From: Liolophura sinensis
Taxonomy: Eukaryota; Mollusca; Polyplacophora; Chitonida; Chitonidae
Assembly (NCBI RefSeq): GCF_032854445.1
Contig: NC_088301.1
Span: forward strand, 7,498,281 to 7,562,280
Direction of reading: 5' to 3'
Length of the DNA stretch: 64,000 nt
Positions 32,365 through 64,000 of the stretch are shown one piece after another. Below the pieces are notes generated by a model. The model was not told the DNA's origin. It saw nothing but the letters and a program-made list of their open reading frames with translations, and searched no databases. Every line of letters begins with the position of its first letter. Position 1 is the first letter of the stretch. Made by a program: the position numbers and the translations under genes.

Positions 32365-35304
32365 TTGATAAAGTTGAAAAAGTATACCTTTTATTTATTT
32401 TTTTGTGATGCATAACCAAGATATTGAAGTTCAGTGTTATTTCTATAACCCGAAAACAGAGCTGTTTCTGCTGCCAGTGTTTGCCTTTTAGCCCTATTGG
32501 CCCCATTCTCCCTATTCACTGTGGGTATGAGTGATGTGATACTCTGACATAGTTTCTTTAACTTAGTTACCCTACGGCTTCATAAGAATTCCAGATTAAA
32601 AACTGATTTATACTGTATTTTCAAACACATCTAAACAAATGGCTTCCAGAATAACAAATGTTATATTATTTGTTGTGTTCAACAATCAGGAACATATGGC
32701 ATACCAAGTACCACTGGAGGACCTTATCGCTCCAAATCTGGAGCCTTGTACTCTCTCGACAAAACCCAGGGGCTTCGTCAACATCTCAGTAACATTGACC
32801 TCTCTAATGGCATAGGGTGGACCAAGGACAACACCACAATGTTCTACATTGACTCACTTCCCAGGAAGATATACTCATTTGACTTTAATCTGCCCGGAGG
32901 AAAAATTGGTAAGCTGTACTCATCTGACTTTGATCTGGTCAGAGGAACAATTGGTAAGCTGCTCTCATTTGGCTTTGAACTTGTCAAAGGAATAGTTGGT
33001 AAGCTGTACTTGTTAGGCTTTAATATGCCCAGAGGAGCAATTGGTAAGCTGTACTTGTTTGTCATTGATGTGGTCAGAGGCAAACTTGGTAGGTTGTACT
33101 TGTTTGGTTTTGATCTGGTCAAAGGAAAAGTCGGTAAGCTGTACTCATTTGGCTTTGATCTGGCCAGAGGAACAGCTGGTAAGCTGTACTAATTTGGCTT
33201 TGATCTGGTCAGAGGAACAGCTGGTAAGCTGTACTAATTTGGCTTTGATCTGGCCAGAGGAACAGCTGGTAAGCTGTACTAATTTGGCTTTGATCTGGCC
33301 AGAGGAACAGCTGGTAAGCTGTACTCATTTGGCTTTGATCTGTTCAGAGGAACAGCTGGTAAGCTGTACTAATTTGGCTTTGATCTGGCTAGAGGAACAG
33401 CTGGTAAGCTGTACTCATTTGGCTTTGATCTGGCCAGAGGAACAGCTGGTAAGCTGTACTCATTTGGCTTTGATCTGGCCAGAGGAACAGCTGGTAAGCT
33501 GTACTCATTTGGCTTTGATCTGGTCAAAGGAACAGCTGGTAAGCTGTACTCATTTGGCTTTGATCTGGTCAAAGGAACACTCAACAGTATTTGGTTGTCT
33601 TGAATCTGGTTAGAGGAGAGTTAACTAAAAGCTAAGCAAAGGAACATATTTCCTTATGCAATCTGCAAGAATGTCTCAGCTGAATCATTCACATTAATAA
33701 TGAACAGAGACATCTCCTTAAACAAATAAATTATTAAATTGTGTTTGTATAACACTGCTTCCAGTGTTCCTGTTGAATCGTTTTATTGATGAGGACTATT
33801 GTTTTGTTTGCTTGTCCAGGAAATCAGCAAGTTGTTGCAGATTTTGCAACCTTAGCACCTGACCTGGGTTTACCTGATGGAATGACCATTGATGCTGAAG
33901 ACAAATTGTGGGTGGCGTGTTTTAAGGCTTCAAAGGTGGTCAGGATCGACCCGGCCACAGGTGAGAATAGAGTGAGTGAGTGAGTGCTTGGGGTTTAACA
34001 TCGTTCTCAACAATTTTTCAGTCATATCACGACGAAGGAATCATTAGGGTGCATGTACGGGTAATGTGCCTCCTTGTTGCAGGACGGATTTCCACCGCTC
34101 TTTTATTTATTGCTGCCTCACTGAGACGACTTACCGAAGGCAAGCAAGCCGCCCCGCCCGAGCCATTATACTGATACGGGTCAACCAGTCGTTGCACAAT
34201 CCTCTTCATGCTGAACGCCAAGCGAGGAAGTTACAACTTCCTCTTTTAAAGTCTTAGGTGTGACTCGATCAAGGATTGATCCTGGATCTACCGGTCCCGA
34301 AGCGGACGCTCTACCGACTGTGCTATCCAGGCCGGTCGGTAAGAATAGAAGAGAGAAAAGTGAAAGAACTTATGGTGTTCAACTCATGAAGATACTTGCT
34401 TGTGAATTATCAGCTTGCAAAGTTGGCAGTGTATTTGATTTATTTATCGACAGCAGCCAATATTATGGTGGAAGGAAACCAGGGAAATCCGACATCCAGA
34501 CTTTTCTGGCATTCCTTCTCACATAACGTTGGTGTTGTAAAAGTGTACATGATGTCAAAGATAATGCATGCCTCAGAAGAACTGAAGAGGACTTTGTGCA
34601 GAAATAGTTTTTTTCTTTCTTCCATTTTGTTCTTCTCAAGAAATTCCATAAAATTCTATGAACATAGTAATGTGATGTGGCATCATCAGTCGTTGAGCTT
34701 GCGAACTTCATGGGGAGCAGGGTGGGAGAGGCCTCCTTTCAAAGAATGAGCAATCAGTGGTCAAATGACAAGTGATTGTACATACCTGTGAAATATATTT
34801 CAAATTACCTTAACCCCCACTGGGAGTGCGGAGTGACTTAACCAGATGTTTCCTAGTCTAGAAACCTTGGTTGAGTCCAATTTAAGCCTTCTTGAGGGTC
34901 TTGAGCTTCAAAATTTGACATTTTTTTGGTACATTTGTTCATGTCATTCCAGCGAGACAGCGGTATAAATGTACCATTCACATTGGCTGCTACAAGGAAA
35001 GCACCCTGTATATTACTGGATCACAGACCGGAGTGTCTAAATTGTAGGTGTATAGATATATAATTCATTTTTTAACATTTTCTTTGTGCTACCAGGTCAA
35101 ATCATACAAGAGGTGAAGTTTCCTGCAAAACACATAACGTCTTGCTGCTTCGGTGGTCCAGACTTTGCCGACCTCTATGTTACCTCAGCCAGATATCACC
35201 TTTCTGATGAAGAGGTCGGGGTCAACCAACCTGAAGCTGGCTCATTATTCAAAGTCACAGGGTTAGGGGTCAAAGGTCTCCCAGCTAATCATTTTGAGAT
35301 CTAA
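30626..35304 (+). CDS. Regucalcin / SMP-30 (gluconolactonase family), copy 1; five coding exons
   Basis: The exons are 30626-30782, 31877-32053, 32690-32908, 33820-33960 and 35096-35304. Together they give 903 nt and a 300-residue protein, close to the 299 of vertebrate SMP-30. All introns are GT-AG and phase 1. Family knowledge: this six-bladed beta-propeller binds a divalent metal, hydrolyses sugar lactones and is cytosolic. The four metal-ligand positions are present: Glu16 (GEGPHW), Asn99 (KFNDGK), Asn151 (LSNGIGWT) and Asp204 (LPDGMTID). The C-terminal CCFGG, LYVT and [10 protein letters not shown] motifs are typical. The residue two before Asn99 is Lys, where copy 2 and vertebrates have Arg, so substrate preference may differ. 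The start is the first in-frame ATG (A at -3) and matches MSVSVVLK in copy 2. No signal peptide is visible. Intron 3 opens with an unusual exon-derived donor array. Confidence 0.93.
31046..31295 (+). mobile_element. Diverged SINE family A in intron 1 of regucalcin copy 1
   Basis: GGCCCCATGGCCAAGGTGG and GCAGGAGCCTCTCGCCAATG are the head; the tail is GTACGGCGTGAAACATCAAT. It splits a degenerate tandem repeat of roughly CCCCATTGGTCAGCGG found on both sides (about 30970-31045 and 31300-31400). Confidence 0.85.
31877..32053 (+). CDS. Regucalcin copy 1, coding exon 2
   Basis: This 177-nt symmetric phase 1-1 exon has acceptor ttccag and donor ACAG|GTAAGG. It carries the second metal ligand in [14 protein letters not shown]. 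Confidence 0.93.
32277..32361. repeat. (TA)n microsatellite in intron 2 of regucalcin copy 1
   Basis: About 80 bp of alternating TA with one early interruption. Confidence 0.98.
32690..32908 (+). CDS. Regucalcin copy 1, coding exon 3
   Basis: This 219-nt symmetric phase 1-1 exon has acceptor aatcag. It encodes the third metal ligand (DLSNGIGWT) and FYIDSLP. Its last 15 codons, [15 protein letters not shown], are the seed of the 45-bp array that follows. The reading frame stays open through the array to a TAA at 33190-33192. Confidence 0.92.
32909..33583 (+). repeat. Exon-derived 45-bp minisatellite carrying 15 serial 5' splice sites
   Basis: There are fifteen head-to-tail copies of a 45-bp unit (15 codons, K-L-Y-S-F-G-F-D-L-x-R-G-x-x-G). 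They start exactly at the exon 3 donor. The unit matches codons 171-185 of the protein plus the exon/intron junction. A GT stands at 32909 and every 45 bp to 33539, nearly always as GGTAAGCTG; the fifth is GGTAGG. Because 45 is divisible by 3, every donor is in phase 1. The first in-frame stop is at 33190, so the first seven donors could give in-frame proteins with 0 to 6 extra blocks. Units in the middle carry TAA; the last four repeat TACTCATTT. Confidence 0.95.
33820..33960 (+). CDS. Regucalcin copy 1, coding exon 4
   Basis: This 141-nt symmetric phase 1-1 exon has acceptor ttgtccag and donor ACAG|GTGAGA. It encodes [18 protein letters not shown] with the fourth metal ligand (Asp204) and ends in RIDPATG. 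A SINE begins only about 11 bp after the donor. Confidence 0.93.
33972..34341 (-). mobile_element. Full-length tRNA-headed SINE, family B, in intron 4 of regucalcin copy 1
   Basis: On the minus strand the head reads GGCCTGGATAGCACAGTCGG TAGAGCG (A box), with a B-box-like GGATCAATCC. A long body follows, then a GTGAGTGAGTG-derived tail on the plus side. Direct repeats AGAATAGA at 33964-33971 and 34342-34349 mark the insertion. It starts 11 bp after the exon 4 donor. Confidence 0.9.
34434..34490 (-). mobile_element. SINE family A remnant in intron 4 of regucalcin copy 1
   Basis: Only GACAGCAGCCAATATTATGG and GAAGGAAACCAGGG are recognisable. Confidence 0.55.
34953..35047 (+). CDS. Possible alternative terminal exon of regucalcin copy 1
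   Basis: After a good acceptor (catgtcattccag) the phase-1 frame stays open for 31 codons to TAG. It ends in [16 protein letters not shown]. The piece LYITGS resembles the LYVTSA strand of the normal last exon and similar strands in other SMP-30/gluconolactonase proteins. Splicing exon 4 to it would give a shorter C-terminus lacking the [10 protein letters not shown] tail. It may be a mutually exclusive last exon or a fossil of a duplicated exon. Phase and family resemblance support it; nothing here shows that it is used. Confidence 0.35.
35096..35304 (+). CDS. Regucalcin copy 1, terminal coding exon 5
   Basis: The acceptor is gtgctaccag. The exon codes for the last 69 residues with the family hallmarks [31 protein letters not shown], then a TAA stop. 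An alternative terminal exon in the same phase lies just upstream. Confidence 0.93.
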
Positions 35305-43243: not shown

Positions 43244-50942
<7,699 letters not shown>

Positions 50943-59435: not shown

Positions 59436-60840
59436 CAGTTTTATGAAATTTGAAATAACAGTTTATTTGGAAACTTGGTAGCAAGATTTTTTGCACATGC
59501 ATGACCTCTCAGTATCCTTGACCTTTGACCTCAGTATGACCTATCATTAAGCAAATTTCAGAGGTCTATATGCCATGTACACGTATATGAAATCAGAGTC
59601 CTTGATGTAGGGGAGTACATGTAATTCCCAAAACAAAACGTGGCTGAAACAGTCCCAACCAAAGATGAACAAGAGATTCACCATGTGCACAGTCAACAGC
59701 TTCAGAGCTTCAAGATTCCGCCAATTTAGCCCAGTGACTAACAGGCAATACCATTAGATCTTATTTACTGTGTTGCTATCTGAAATACACAGTATCATCC
59801 TATTTTAAACTCTAAAGTGATGCAAAAATAGACATACTGATAACGATAGATTTTAAAACAAGTTTAAGGTATTTTAACATGTTTTTCTATTCCACTGGCA
59901 AGCACAAATAACCAAATTTTGTCACGCTATAAAGTGGAATAATTCTGTAAATATACTCGTGATGCGATAAAGATTACTGACAGACATGCAGACAATGTAA
60001 CACAAAATTCTATTCTACACTAAATGTGCCCAGAAAATCTAACAATAAATGCATACAACTTCATGTACAATGACATGAAAACAAAGCGCACAAATCACCA
60101 ATGACATGGCTGAAAAGAATTGTTGACAGCTTACCTGCTGACCAGCCAGCCCGGATCCGATTGGAGCAATATCTCAGGTATTCTATCATTGTTCCTATAG
60201 TGGTTCCGCACTGGAGAGTACTTCTTATCCACAACTCTCAGGTGAGACTCATTAATACATTGCAACATCTCCAGGTACTCCTCAGTGGATTCTAAATCAG
60301 ACACCAAAACTAACATAAACATATCAGAGCGTGGACTCGCATGAGATAAAGAGGTTTTCCTTACCTGAAAAGGCAACTGCAAAAAGTGTTAAGAAAACAC
60401 TTGCTTAACCATGTCCACTTATATATAAAAGTAAATATAGCAACCTACAAGTATATGTACCCCATATCCACTTATCACAAAATGCAAAAGCAAAAATACT
60501 AATTTACCGTGTGTCCACTTTAAAGATAAAAGTGAATATGCCAATGTGCATTTAAACATAAATAAATGTCAAGTCAATAAAAAGATAAAAATGCAGTTGA
60601 CAATATAAAAAAAGTTTGCATTATTAACATGCTTTTTGTCAAACTCCAAGATGACTCTAGCTCACGGTATAATGGATCACTTACCTGGTGGTGTGTTGGG
60701 GACAATGCTTTTGTTCTCATATCTGTAGGAGGTTGCCAGTTGTCCATCAGCTCCGTTATAAATATACACCTGGTTCATCTTTGTTCTTTCCAGGTAATCT
60801 TTTAGCTTCACCTGTTGCTCACAAGATGTGTCCACCATAC
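52356..60840 (-). CDS. Ectonucleotide pyrophosphatase/phosphodiesterase (ENPP1-3 type), 3' eleven exons; 5' part beyond the window
   Basis: Eleven minus-strand exons are joined in transcription order: 60840-60685, 60291-60135, 58902-58842, 58294-58207, 57780-57602, 56937-56743, 56187-56061, 55659-55594, 55348-55222, 53746-53593, 52505-52356. They splice in frame for 485 codons plus stop, starting just after DHG. Family knowledge: ENPPs are secreted or type II membrane zinc enzymes that cleave phosphodiester and pyrophosphate bonds in nucleotides or lysophospholipids. Seen here: the end of the catalytic domain (GMVDTSC; SHGWDN with the metal-binding His; [33 protein letters not shown]), the linker, and a nuclease-like domain ([16 protein letters not shown], a calcium-loop pattern; [17 protein letters not shown]). 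The nuclease-like domain excludes the short ENPP4-7 types. Length after DHG fits ENPP1/2. The nucleophile and first metal ligands lie outside. Convergent with regucalcin copy 2. Confidence 0.93.
53267..53362 (-). CDS. Possible in-frame cassette exon within the last ENPP intron
   Basis: Between the last two ENPP exons, 96 nt are open in phase 0-0, the phase needed there. Acceptor gtttgggtcag, donor ACAG|GTTGAA (weak). It would insert 32 residues, [20 protein letters not shown] and then [12 protein letters not shown]. The direct join without it already fits the family, so this would be optional or not an exon at all. GYCFGG also resembles dienelactone hydrolases and YVLGG resembles kelch repeats, neither strongly enough for a call. 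Confidence 0.25.
53593..53746 (-). CDS. ENPP nuclease-like domain, ATHFYL exon
   Basis: 154 nt; acceptor gacttctttgtag, donor TTGG|GTAAGT, phase 2 in and 0 out. It encodes [15 protein letters not shown] and [16 protein letters not shown], which match IPTHYFVVLTSC ... LPFIIPHRPTN..SC. Confidence 0.92.
53870..54660 (-). repeat. Dispersed ~160-bp repeat, inverted copies in an ENPP intron
   Basis: Reverse-complement units (TCGTGAATTTGGTAATTTAC, ATCAACCCTAGCATTTTGTT; ATCAACGATGGAATATTTCC, ATTGTGCTCTACATG) at about 53930-54230 and 54480-54650. Confidence 0.7.
55222..55348 (-). CDS. ENPP nuclease-like domain, calcium-loop exon
   Basis: 127 nt; acceptor tttttttgtcag, donor TCAG|GTACTA. It encodes GIWSRLL and [18 protein letters not shown]. 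The loop D-N-N-S-D-G fits the EF-hand-like calcium site of ENPP1-3 (FDYNYDG in vertebrates). Confidence 0.93.
55594..55659 (-). CDS. ENPP nuclease-like domain, small exon
   Basis: 66 nt, phase 1-1; acceptor catacttttaag, donor ACAG|GTAAAG. It encodes [20 protein letters not shown], the counterpart of DALLISNIVPMYxxF. Confidence 0.82.
55748..55826 (+). repeat. 19-bp tandem repeat, four copies
   Basis: GCTCAGGTGAAGGTTATGT occurs four times with one variant, in the ENPP intron between 55660 and 56060. Confidence 0.9.
55906..56000 (-). mobile_element. SINE family A fragment in an ENPP intron
   Basis: TTTATTTATTTGATTAGTGT then ACGCCGTACTCAGGACTATT and GGTGGGAGGAAACGTGGG. It ends about 60 bp before the 3' end of the adjacent ENPP exon. 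Confidence 0.85.
56061..56187 (-). CDS. ENPP nuclease-like domain exon
   Basis: 127 nt; acceptor ccattttgtag, donor CAAG|GTCAGC. It encodes [18 protein letters not shown] ... [10 protein letters not shown], aligning with SCLRLDPRLxxxESFSC ... NLTYGFLFPP of the family. Confidence 0.88.
56743..56937 (-). CDS. ENPP exon entering the nuclease-like domain
   Basis: 195 nt, phase 0-0; acceptor ttgtaacacag, donor ACG|GTAATC. It encodes EYGPPQIV and [13 protein letters not shown], which match the YGRPRVL ... CLLSQHQFMSGY signature. The strongly conserved MPLWTSYTV is degenerate here ([14 protein letters not shown]). Confidence 0.88.
57024..57105 (-). mobile_element. SINE family A short fragment in an ENPP intron
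   Basis: CTTAATTATTTATCTGATTG, then AACATTTCACTTACACGGCG. Decayed. Confidence 0.65.
57440..57560 (-). repeat. Dispersed repeat family C in the ENPP intron beside exon 57602-57780
   Basis: CCGCTTATTGTCGCCACTGC and CCCTACCCAAGGCCAGGTTT GAACCC. The latter is a B-box-like element on the minus strand. Confidence 0.55.
57602..57780 (-). CDS. ENPP exon with [16 protein letters not shown] and linker
   Basis: 179 nt; acceptor tttttcactcag, donor [26 protein letters not shown] is diagnostic of ENPPs ([16 protein letters not shown] in vertebrates). It is followed by a Cys-rich linker ending CSCNNSQ, which matches CSCNPS. Confidence 0.94.
58207..58294 (-). CDS. ENPP exon with [10 protein letters not shown] and IELYNLM
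   Basis: 88 nt, phase 0 in and 1 out; acceptor gactgttggcag, donor TCAG|GTAAGT. It matches the family ALFVGYGPGFK ... FENIEVYNLM stretch. Confidence 0.93.
58842..58902 (-). CDS. ENPP short exon with catalytic-site SHGWDN
   Basis: 61 nt; acceptor cctggttgtag, donor GGG|GTAAGT. It encodes [16 protein letters not shown]. The His corresponds to the last metal-binding His of the ENPP catalytic site (H535 in human ENPP1, from memory). Confidence 0.9.
59358..59432. repeat. (TA)n microsatellite in an ENPP intron
   Basis: About 75 bp of alternating TA, with copies of a dispersed repeat (AGTTTTAYGAAATTTGAAAT...AACTTGKTRRCAAGATTTTT) on both sides at about 59055-59110 and 59433-59495. Confidence 0.97.
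60135..60291 (-). CDS. ENPP exon with the [13 protein letters not shown] segment
   Basis: 157 nt; acceptor tctgatttag, donor GCAG|GTAAGC, phase 1 in and phase 2 out. It encodes [20 protein letters not shown], matching the LPKRLHYANNRRIEDI...D region of vertebrate ENPPs. Confidence 0.93.
60685..60840 (-). CDS. ENPP exon with GMVDTSC, following the DHG exon
   Basis: 156 nt; acceptor ccatgcag, donor CCAG|GTAAGT. The first two bases complete the Gly of DHG, giving [12 protein letters not shown] as in the family (DHGMEDTSC in vertebrates). The 5' partner is the donor array to the right, which supplies GATCATG in exactly this phase. Confidence 0.93.
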
Positions 60841-61136
60841 CTGCATGGATGGATTAATGAGAGGCTAAAACTATTTACTATCACCTAATCAATCCTCCTT
60901 GTCGTACATAAATGACTATCTTGTATCAGACAAAATACTCCAGTTTTCATTGGACAACAACGGTCACGTGAGGTACAGATATATTCTCAAATCCTGCAGG
61001 TGACATCATATGTGTCTGCTCTGTAGGTTATCTCCCTTGGTTGGGTTGTAAATACAATGGTCACTTCGCTGTAGCGATTCATCTATACGTCAGTCTTCTG
61101 CACCGAATTGTTGCGTCTTTGCAGGATAAATTTTTT

Positions 61137-61254
61137 ACATGGTTACTCAGCGATAGGATACGCAAATATGTCGTGATAATAATCTTCATAATGGGCTCGA
61201 AGTCAGGATTATTGACAGCATATATTTGCGTATCCTGTCACTGAGTAACCATGT
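61137..61254. repeat. Long inverted repeat (foldback) in an ENPP intron
   Basis: Arms of about 48 bp begin ACATGGTTACTCAGYGAYAG and continue GATACGCAAATAT. They pair with few mismatches around a loop of about 20-25 bp. It could be a small foldback transposon or a hairpin in the transcript. Confidence 0.88.
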
Positions 61255-61504
61255 GACTAATAAACTACAGTGTATGTTAACATGTGAATGCCATTTAAAG
61301 GAGTATGTAGTTTTTATATAATGATGATTATAAATTTTCTGTAGCGTAATTAAGCTACTAGCTAATACAGAAAACAGGTGAGAAAAGTTGCTTTCTTTTT
61401 CGAGCCCTATTGATTATTTGCCACTTATGATTTGTTTTGCTTGCAGAACAAGGATTAAGGTTATGAAATGTATTGCATGTGCATGCCCTATAGGCCTACA
61501 GTAC

Positions 61505-63960
61505 GTACACTTACCATGATCTGCCTGGACAATGATATGTGACCTGGCAGCATATCTTTACACTTACCATGATCTGACAGGACAATGATATGTGACCTGG
61601 CAGCATATCTGTACACTTACCATGATCTGCCTGGACAATGATATATGACCTGGCAGCATATCTGTACACTTACCATGATCCGACAGGACAATGATATGTG
61701 ACATGGCAGCGTATTTGTACACTTACCATGATCTGTCAGGACAATGATATGTGACCTGGCAGCATATCTGTACACTTACCATGATATGCCTGGACAATGA
61801 TATATGACCTGGCAGCATATCTGTACACTTACCATGATCCGACAGGACAATGATATGTGACATGGCAGCGTATTTGTACACTTACCATGATCTGTCAGGA
61901 CAATGATATGTAACCTGGCAGCGTATTTGTACACTTACCATGATCTGTCAGGACAATGATATGTGACCTGGGAGCATATCTGTACACTTACCATGATATG
62001 CCTAGCCAATGATATGTGACCTGGCAGCATATCTGTACACTCACCATGATCTGCCTGGTCAATGATATGTGACCTGGCAGCATATCTGTACACTTACTAT
62101 GATCTGTCAAGACAATGATATGTGACCTGGCAGCATATCTTTACACTTACCATGATCTGACAGGACAATGATATGTGACCTGGCAGCATATCTTTACACT
62201 TACCATGATCTGTCAAGACAATGATATGTGACCTGGCAGCATATCTTTACACTTACCATGATCTGTCAGGACAATGATATGTGACCTGGCAGCGTATCTG
62301 TACACTTACTATGATCTGTCAGGACAATGATATGTGACCTGGCAGCATATCTTTACACTTACCATGATCTGTCAGGACAATGATATGTGACCTGGCAGCG
62401 TATCTGTACACTTACCATGATCTGTCAGGACAATGATATGTGACCTGGCAGCGTATCTGTACACTTAGTATGATCTGTCAAGACAATGATATGTGACCTG
62501 GCAGCGTATCTGTACACTTACCATGATCTGTGAGGATAATGATATGTGACATGCCAGCATATCTGTACACTCACCATGATCTGCCACAACAGTGATATCT
62601 CACCTGCGTGCCTGCACACTCACTGTTATCTGCCACGGCAACGATACCTGACCAGCACAACTGTGCCCTCACCATGATCTGCCACGACAATGATATCTGA
62701 CCTGCATACTTGTGCACTCACTGTGATCTGCCACGACAATGATACCTGACCAGCACAACTGTGCCCTCACCATGATCTGCCACGACAATGATATCTGACC
62801 TGCGTACCTGTGCACTCACTGTGATCTATCACGACAGTGATATCTGACCTACGTACCTGTGCACTCACTGTGATCTACCACGACAATGATATCTGACCTA
62901 CGTACCAGTGCACTCACTGTGATCTGTCAGGACAATGATATCTGACCTACGTACCTGTGCACTCACTGTGATCTGCCACGACAATGATATCTGACCTGCG
63001 TACCTGTGCACTCAGGGTGATCTATCACGACAATGATATCTGACCTGCTTACCTGTATACTCACCGTGATCTGACATGGCAATGATACCTGACAACCACA
63101 ACTGTACCCTCACGATGATCTGCCACGACAATGATATCTGACCTGCGTACCTGTGCACTCACTGTGATCTGCGACGACAATGATATTACGTACCTGTGCA
63201 CTCCCCGTCATCTGACATGACAATGATACCTGACCAGCACAACTGTGCCCTCGCTGTGATCTGCCACAACAGTGATATCTGACCTGCGTACCTGTGCACT
63301 CACTGTGATCTACCACGACAATGATATCTGACCTGTGTACCTGTATACTCACCGTGATCTGATATGACAATGATACCTGACAAGCACAACTGTAGACTCA
63401 CCATGATCTGCCACAACACTGATATCTGACCAGTGTACCTGTACACTCACTGTGATTTGCCAGAACAATGACATCTGACCAGCATACCTGTATGCTCACC
63501 GTGATCTGCCAAAACAATGATATCTGACCAGCATACTTGTACACTCACTGTGATCTGCCACAACAATGACATCTGACCAGCATACCTGTACACTCACTGT
63601 GATCTGCCAAAACAATGATATCTCACTGGTGAGCGCACCTGTACACTCATCGTGGTCTGCCACTACAGTGATATCTCTCTGCAATGACGCTGATATCTGG
63701 CCAGTTTACCTGTACACTCACCGTGATCTGCCATGACCCCGGTTTCCTCCCACCATTCTTGAGTACGGCGTAAAACACCAATCAAATAAATCAAATCAAA
63801 TCAAATCTGCCACAACACTGATATCTGCGAAAACAATAATATCTCACTGGTGAGCGCACCTGTACACTCATCGTGGTCTGCCACGACACTGATATCTGAC
63901 CAGTGTACCTATACACTCACTGTGATCTGCCACAACAATGATATCTGATCAGTGTACCTG
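61505..63960 (-). repeat. Exon-derived minisatellite repeating the ENPP DHG exon end with its donor
   Basis: A tandem array of about 2.45 kb has two unit sizes: about 20 copies of 53 bp (61505 to about 62575) and about 27 copies near 49 bp with some irregular units (to 63960). Read on the minus strand, the 53-bp unit is AARSHIIVLTDHG followed by GTAAGTGTACAG. The 49-bp unit reads RSDIIVVADH followed by GTGAGTGCACAG or GTGAGGGCAC. Both are the family segment (I/V)VxxDHG that binds two metal ligands, ending in the phase that fits the next exon. The authentic exon must lie in or beyond the right edge. A SINE tail interrupts the array at about 63738-63812. Confidence 0.93.
63738..63812 (+). mobile_element. 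SINE family A tail fragment inside the ENPP array
   Basis: It contains CCGGTTTCCTCCCACCAT, then TTCTTGAGTACGGCGTAAAA and CACCAATCAAATAAATC. It has the tail and a little of the body, with an internal deletion, and sits between 49-bp array units. Confidence 0.85.
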
Positions 63961-63963
63961 TAT

Positions 63964-64000
63964 TTTGATTTATTTGATTGGTGTTTTACGCCGTACTCAA
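63964..64000 (-). mobile_element. SINE family A, cut by the window edge
   Basis: The last bases (TTTGATTGGTGTTTTACG CCGTACTCAA) are the reverse complement of the family A tail. The element continues past the edge and ends the array. Confidence 0.85.

Follow-up and report, generated by a model that had tools for sequence, protein, structure and literature searches.

Mirages, as described in amphioxus, are minisatellite-like tandem duplications of an exon–intron boundary beside the authentic one; the parts of the two sources covered place them in Adh3, the globins BflGb6 and BflGb9 and troponin C, with a similar case in PGBD5 (PMC3087553, PMC3902484). According to the same parts, splice signals are present in many but not all units, and the ends of the arrays escape homogenization (PMC3087553, PMC3902484). 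No report of such a structure in a mollusc was found in the literature, coverage of which was partial. The minisatellite of the human interferon-induced gene 6-16 (IFI6) was reportedly described by Turri in 1995, and Zhuo is said to have treated human arrays and intron gain by tandem duplication in 2007. Two downstream units of the IFI6 minisatellite are used as donors and yield isoforms, as given in the portion of the source covered (PMC4526556). For the potato RdRp gene, the covered portion of a further source presents intron gain by tandem duplication under the AGGT model (PMC4974935).

The window analyzed here is a stretch of 64,000 nucleotides, C7:7498281-7562280 of the 609-Mb Liolophura sinensis genome; L001 is the next 10 kb rightward. 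The assembly was published as Liolophura japonica (PMC11068029) and the name was corrected to Liolophura sinensis (PMC12441733), as stated in the sections covered of both papers. Directly downstream of an authentic exon of an ENPP gene, a segment of ~50 bp (the last 24 exon bases, the donor and ~20–25 intron bases) is repeated 47 times. Very probably, this array began as a tandem duplication across the exon–intron boundary that expanded into a minisatellite, is near-neutral and is tolerated through use of the first donor.

The ENPP gene and its authentic exon

The gene, its array and the repeat pieces within the intron are annotated on the minus strand. A sequence-only reading of the window had proposed that an exon 3' end with its donor was amplified into the following intron, and had stated beforehand that a DHG exon beyond 64 kb unlike the unit would speak against this. 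Extension past the window located the authentic DHG exon (109 nt) at L001:159-267, or 64159-64267 in extended coordinates, and it is similar to the unit. The exon has an acceptor (..TTTCAG) at its start and GTAAGTGTAGGCC at its end. Aligned without intron bases, it matches the 49-bp unit at 22/23 bases and the 53-bp unit at 19/22, and in both cases none of 500 shuffles gave an equal score. The end of the exon (64182-64159, extended coordinates) is the first copy of the array. Since the exon, one unit, a piece of dispersed repeat and the array of the window lie in succession, the array begins at the authentic exon end. The next exon (GMVDTSC...NTPP; 60685..60840) was seen to start with GMVDTSC at 60840 in the matching phase, G|GT, just as had been read.

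On protein homology, the array-bearing gene can be assigned to ENPP. Six joined exon pieces match ENPP3 (8.9e-66), ENPP2 (3.7e-63) and ENPP1 (1.9e-59), while the authentic exon alone matches Pfam Phosphodiest at 5.2e-10. The same Pfam family matches the exon series of the array-bearing gene and likewise those of its two tandem paralogs on C7. By eye, a further ENPP exon was identified near 74187, and a TAG inside one ENPP exon match sits at the acceptor. The exons examined on either side of the array are open and ENPP-like.

Organization of the array

The array is ~2.7 kb long, takes up most of a 3.3-kb intron and consists of 47 tandem units and two badly truncated pieces (63824 and 63696), which are left out of all counts of 47. 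Each unit is a copy of the last 24 exon bases with the splice donor, reading ATATCATTGT..GCAGATCA.G with variants and then GTAAGTG or GTGAGTG on the minus strand. A 31-base core of 24 exon and 7 donor bases matches at 50 places, namely the authentic exon end, the 47 units and the two truncated pieces, and in 20/20 shuffles of the same sequence there was no place with nine or fewer mismatches to it. TRF detects the same array, and the earlier estimate of about 45–50 copies of the DHG exon end with donor is borne out. The GT is kept in 41 of the 47 units and the DH codons in 42; the unit at 63745, counted among the 47, is without its first bases.

Two zones were delimited by TRF and core matching. 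The one nearer the authentic exon (62546..63960) has 49-bp units with the consensus core ATATCATTGTCGTGGCAGATCACA|GTGAGTG. From 63621 to 62598 its units follow one another every 49 bp, apart from one interval of 43, and upstream of 63621 the spacing is irregular; the zone has 26 units with starts from 63944 to 62598, and one further unit lies outside the window at L001:97-127. The second zone (61508..62545) holds 20 units with the consensus core ATATCATTGTCCTGACAGATCATG|GTAAGTG, at a spacing of 53 bp throughout 62598 to 61538. It is fairly homogeneous, and the 49-bp zone is the more diverged of the two. The 49-bp zone is also interrupted by an inserted dispersed-repeat tail of the TTTGATTGGTGTTTTACGCCGTACTCAAGAAT type (stretch 63738..63825). 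A second piece of the same repeat, in opposite orientation, occupies the right edge of the window (63961..64000) and runs on into L001:1-90.

In a genome search with the array (40 of 434 candidates scored), 42 matches were listed: 40 in query positions 136-223, which is the inserted repeat tail, one to the array itself and one to the authentic exon. Dispersed copies of the unit were absent among these listed matches. The repeat tail is abundant, with at least 40 matches of 41–74 bp, 38 of them on other contigs.

The remainder of the intron beyond the array spans 60841..61507. Its first bases (TAGGCCTA at 61498) are similar to those directly after the authentic donor (64151). Within 61001-64400, TAGGCCTA is found at these two array ends and nowhere else, and it occurs three times in 84 kb. 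Its presence at both ends, which refers to one haplotype, and its absence inside would be expected if the outermost copies escape homogenization. The units at 61909, 61856 and 61803 appear a second time, with a single base difference, at 61750, 61697 and 61644, which can be read as a sign of multi-unit exchange. The length of the array is that in one assembly of one individual.

Paralogs and relative age of the array

In both tandem paralogs (L003 and L004), the corresponding exon was seen by eye to have the same end, DH-G, with a GTAAG donor in the same phase. The intron thus lies at the same place and phase in all three copies, and there is no new intron at the array locus. In the corresponding intron, TRF finds just a two-copy 83-bp repeat in L003 and no repeat in L004. 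As these paralogs have the intron without the array, the array would be younger and have arisen in the present copy, unless both of them lost it. The third ENPP paralog has a 36-bp array with GGTGATG in one of its later introns (L004:1-838); an exon origin was rejected for it (p 0.70).

Arrays at other genes

In the window, a regucalcin/SMP-30 exon end with its donor (ATTG|GTAAGCTG) forms a plus-strand array of ~15.7 copies of a 45-bp unit at 32872..33579, as established by TRF and exon alignment. The parallel that the sequence-only reading drew between ENPP and this first regucalcin copy is therefore well founded. An exon origin was not demonstrable (p 0.32) for a 54-bp array in intron 1 of the second regucalcin gene (43537-44215), the consensus unit of which carries a near-consensus donor (ATGGTAAGT). 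Two other arrays were noted in passing. One, of 20 copies of 55 bp (L001:5230-6335), overlaps the 3' end of an ORF that is GPCR-like by eye (L001:4084-5313), and the other (L009:7065-9734) repeats 57 times a 47-bp unit that carries AAGGTGGGT on the minus strand.

A random sample of 150 kb in 15 pieces contained 25 TRF arrays after filtering for a period of at least 15 and at least 2.8 copies, with overlaps merged. The consensus donor was better than 95% of shuffles in 3/15 arrays of the window and in 2/25 of the random sample. One array of the sample (L013:435-2443) is made up of 11 copies of a helicase exon end (93 nt by eye; Pfam HA2_C, 4e-8) with ~90 bp of intron. Near it, an exon encoding an OB-fold (PF07717) runs up to a donor at L013:6494.

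Genome-wide, a triple GGTAAGT at array-like spacing gave 1845 matches (850+995) and its reversed control 2641 (1231+1410), so there is no enrichment of the donor motif in arrays; these matches overlap and are not independent, and the comparison is one of matches rather than of control clusters. The 100 listed of the 1845 matches fall into 24 clusters, all located on C1 from 0.5 to 31.3 Mb, with two neighbors near 25.41 Mb taken as one. By rough scaling, there may be ~440 such donor arrays in the genome.

The 5' flanks of all 24 loci were searched, and an ORF of at least 28 codons ending at the first donor was present at 13. Pfam matches above cut-off were obtained at 4/24 loci, with one peptide per locus and three further frames left out. 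Single GGTAAGT sites of the random sample had such an ORF in 13/17 cases, and two of the 13 distinct peptides submitted to Pfam were above cut-off. These proportions, 4/24 and 2/17, show no clear difference, the numbers being small and the pipelines slightly different. As far as such small numbers indicate, real donors and other copies of the motif seem to give rise to arrays with about the same frequency.

At six of the 24 sampled loci, a protein homolog was detected at E below 1e-3. Four exon ends on C1 were identified by Pfam, those of a DUF4457 protein (L023), Branch (Core-2 branching enzyme; L027), a GH31 glycosidase (L040) and the myosin head of a myosin heavy chain (L041). At L034 (C1:14889402-14891052), a 44-bp donor array follows an exon end of the RNA polymerase III subunit RPC1 (2.7e-7), and 32/32 exon bases match the array unit. 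The sixth locus, L035, has a match to N-acetylneuraminate lyase (9.1e-4). The unit contains 15–39 exon bases at five of the six, with a score reached by 0/1000 shuffles; at L035 it contains just seven (p 0.051). The weak matches of L028 to polycystin (0.075) and of L031 to a designed protein (0.0069) were not counted as homology. No protein match was seen at L022, L025, L030, L033 or L037, the PDB search covering L025 and L033 of these five. Applied to ~440 arrays, 5/24 would be ~90 genes, with a wide error. On this protein-level support from regucalcin, the helicase and five of the 24 sampled donor arrays, the ENPP structure is not unique in the genome.

Splicing consequences and selection on the donors

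Read-through past the authentic donor is predicted to reach a TGA stop after 22 codons, at 64102. It had been claimed that extra units would shift the frame. This is so for the second donor, at +55 nt from the authentic one, but as a general rule it does not stand: 14/47 downstream donors are at offsets divisible by three, although retention up to the third and later donors includes the stop at 64102 and would give a truncated protein. With the stop located before the third donor and the frame shifted by the second, no full-length isoform is expected from any of them.

The copies might still serve as regulated alternative or decoy donors, if U1 binding at many sites alters the amount of mRNA or if truncated isoforms decay. 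Most units have retained their GT, and with a simple donor matrix the score of the authentic donor is equaled or exceeded by 19/47 copies. The use of downstream repeat units as alternative donors in human IFI6, described in the portion covered of that paper, provides a precedent (PMC4526556). In addition, among the 45 windows of the regucalcin array, variability is lowest in the one that holds the donor; this is one result, from one array, leaning towards kept donors, which it would fit. The ENPP array itself argues otherwise. Mean diversity is lower in its donor columns than in the rest (0.033 vs 0.085, and 0.098 vs 0.181), but 14/53 and 13/49 windows are as low or lower, so special conservation of the donors is not clear from diversity windows across the 53-bp and 49-bp units. 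For these windows, the 53-bp set was taken without the last unit (61538) and the 49-bp set was 62647-63621 without unit 63229; the 49-bp column table leaves out 63745 and 64127. Moreover, six of the 47 donors have been lost, the two paralogs examined manage without an array, and the tripled motif was no commoner in the genome than its reversed control. A role as regulated or decoy donors is thus improbable, and the suggestion of decoys or redundant sites made in the sequence-only reading finds no support in ENPP donor conservation or in the genome-wide motif counts.

The third codon positions of the units are no more variable than the first, which argues that the copies are without coding constraint. 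Most likely, the ENPP copies are neutral intron sequence, tolerated since the first, exon-proximal donor would still be the one used.

That a short repeat was inflated or misjoined in the assembly is very unlikely. Tandem arrays are error-prone, and HiFi coverage is given as 14X in the section covered of the genome paper (PMC11068029). Nevertheless, the units differ from one another, fall into two ordered zones and carry an inserted repeat tail, and the same structure recurs at other loci. The HiFi reads average 8,347 bp according to that section (PMC11068029), so single reads could span an array of this length.

Equally doubtful is a step in intron or exon gain, with units spliced as new exons or splitting the intron. 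Such a role was put forward for amphioxus mirages (PMC3087553) and reported for a duplicated boundary in potato (PMC4974935), in the parts covered of these papers. At ENPP, the shared position of the intron in two paralogs means that it was not gained here. By eye, the units are without an acceptor and pyrimidine tract, and neither 49 nor 53 is a multiple of three.

The least credible explanation is a dispersed satellite or transposon, exon-like by chance and inserted beside the exon, because in spite of a genome rich in arrays and the dispersed-repeat tail within this one, the listed matches (40 of 434 candidates scored) include no unit copy elsewhere and the unit–exon match score was reached in 0/500 shuffles.

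Discussion

Growth of a minisatellite from a duplicated exon–intron boundary would have proceeded as follows. An initial local duplication was probably multiplied through slippage or unequal exchange. The interior of the array would then have diverged into the 49-bp and 53-bp subfamilies, while both ends retained founder features. As the array has left the whole exon and the original donor undamaged at its 5' end, the spliceosome is presumed to keep to the exon-proximal donor; the copies would remain intronic and so evolve nearly neutrally. That the copied segment encodes the DHG motif of the protein would be incidental.

In the literature covered, mirages have been described only in amphioxus. 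A large case in a mollusc, together with comparable arrays at exons of other genes in its genome (myosin, GH31 enzyme, RNA polymerase III subunit, helicase and regucalcin), suggests a wider phenomenon. We regard as evenly balanced the broader proposition that minisatellite growth over donors is widespread in the chiton genome, still under way and close to neutral, and has placed many strong extra donors behind exons of about a hundred genes, essential ones included. If this is true, the loci are natural tests of how the exon-proximal donor is chosen among dozens of near-equals, and the arrays are a source from which introns and exons could be gained outside chordates. With dozens of near-equal donors behind a single exon, such loci should show whether donor choice depends on position alone, and a comparison of long with short alleles would show any cost of such arrays.

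Among the known systems, IFI6 resembles the ENPP array in that downstream repeat units bear splice donors. It differs in the outcome, as isoforms arise from the units there, whereas read-through at ENPP is predicted to truncate the protein. Intron gain by tandem duplication likewise involves a local duplication that copies splice signals, but no new intron is seen at ENPP, where the intron predates the array.

The closest likeness is to the mirages of amphioxus. As in these, the ENPP unit spans the exon–intron boundary, comprising 24 exon bases, the donor and intron bases; one end of the array still holds the authentic boundary, and the ENPP-like exons examined on either side are open; and a GT is present in many but not all units (41/47). 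Amphioxus mirages affect both 5' and 3' boundaries in the parts of the sources covered, whereas the search in the chiton covered the donor side. The ENPP host is a mollusc, and its 47 units compare with six and three units in the two BflGb6 haplotypes given in those parts (PMC3087553, PMC3902484). Judged by its sequence features, the ENPP array is a mirage and, for a repeat type already known in amphioxus, unusually large.
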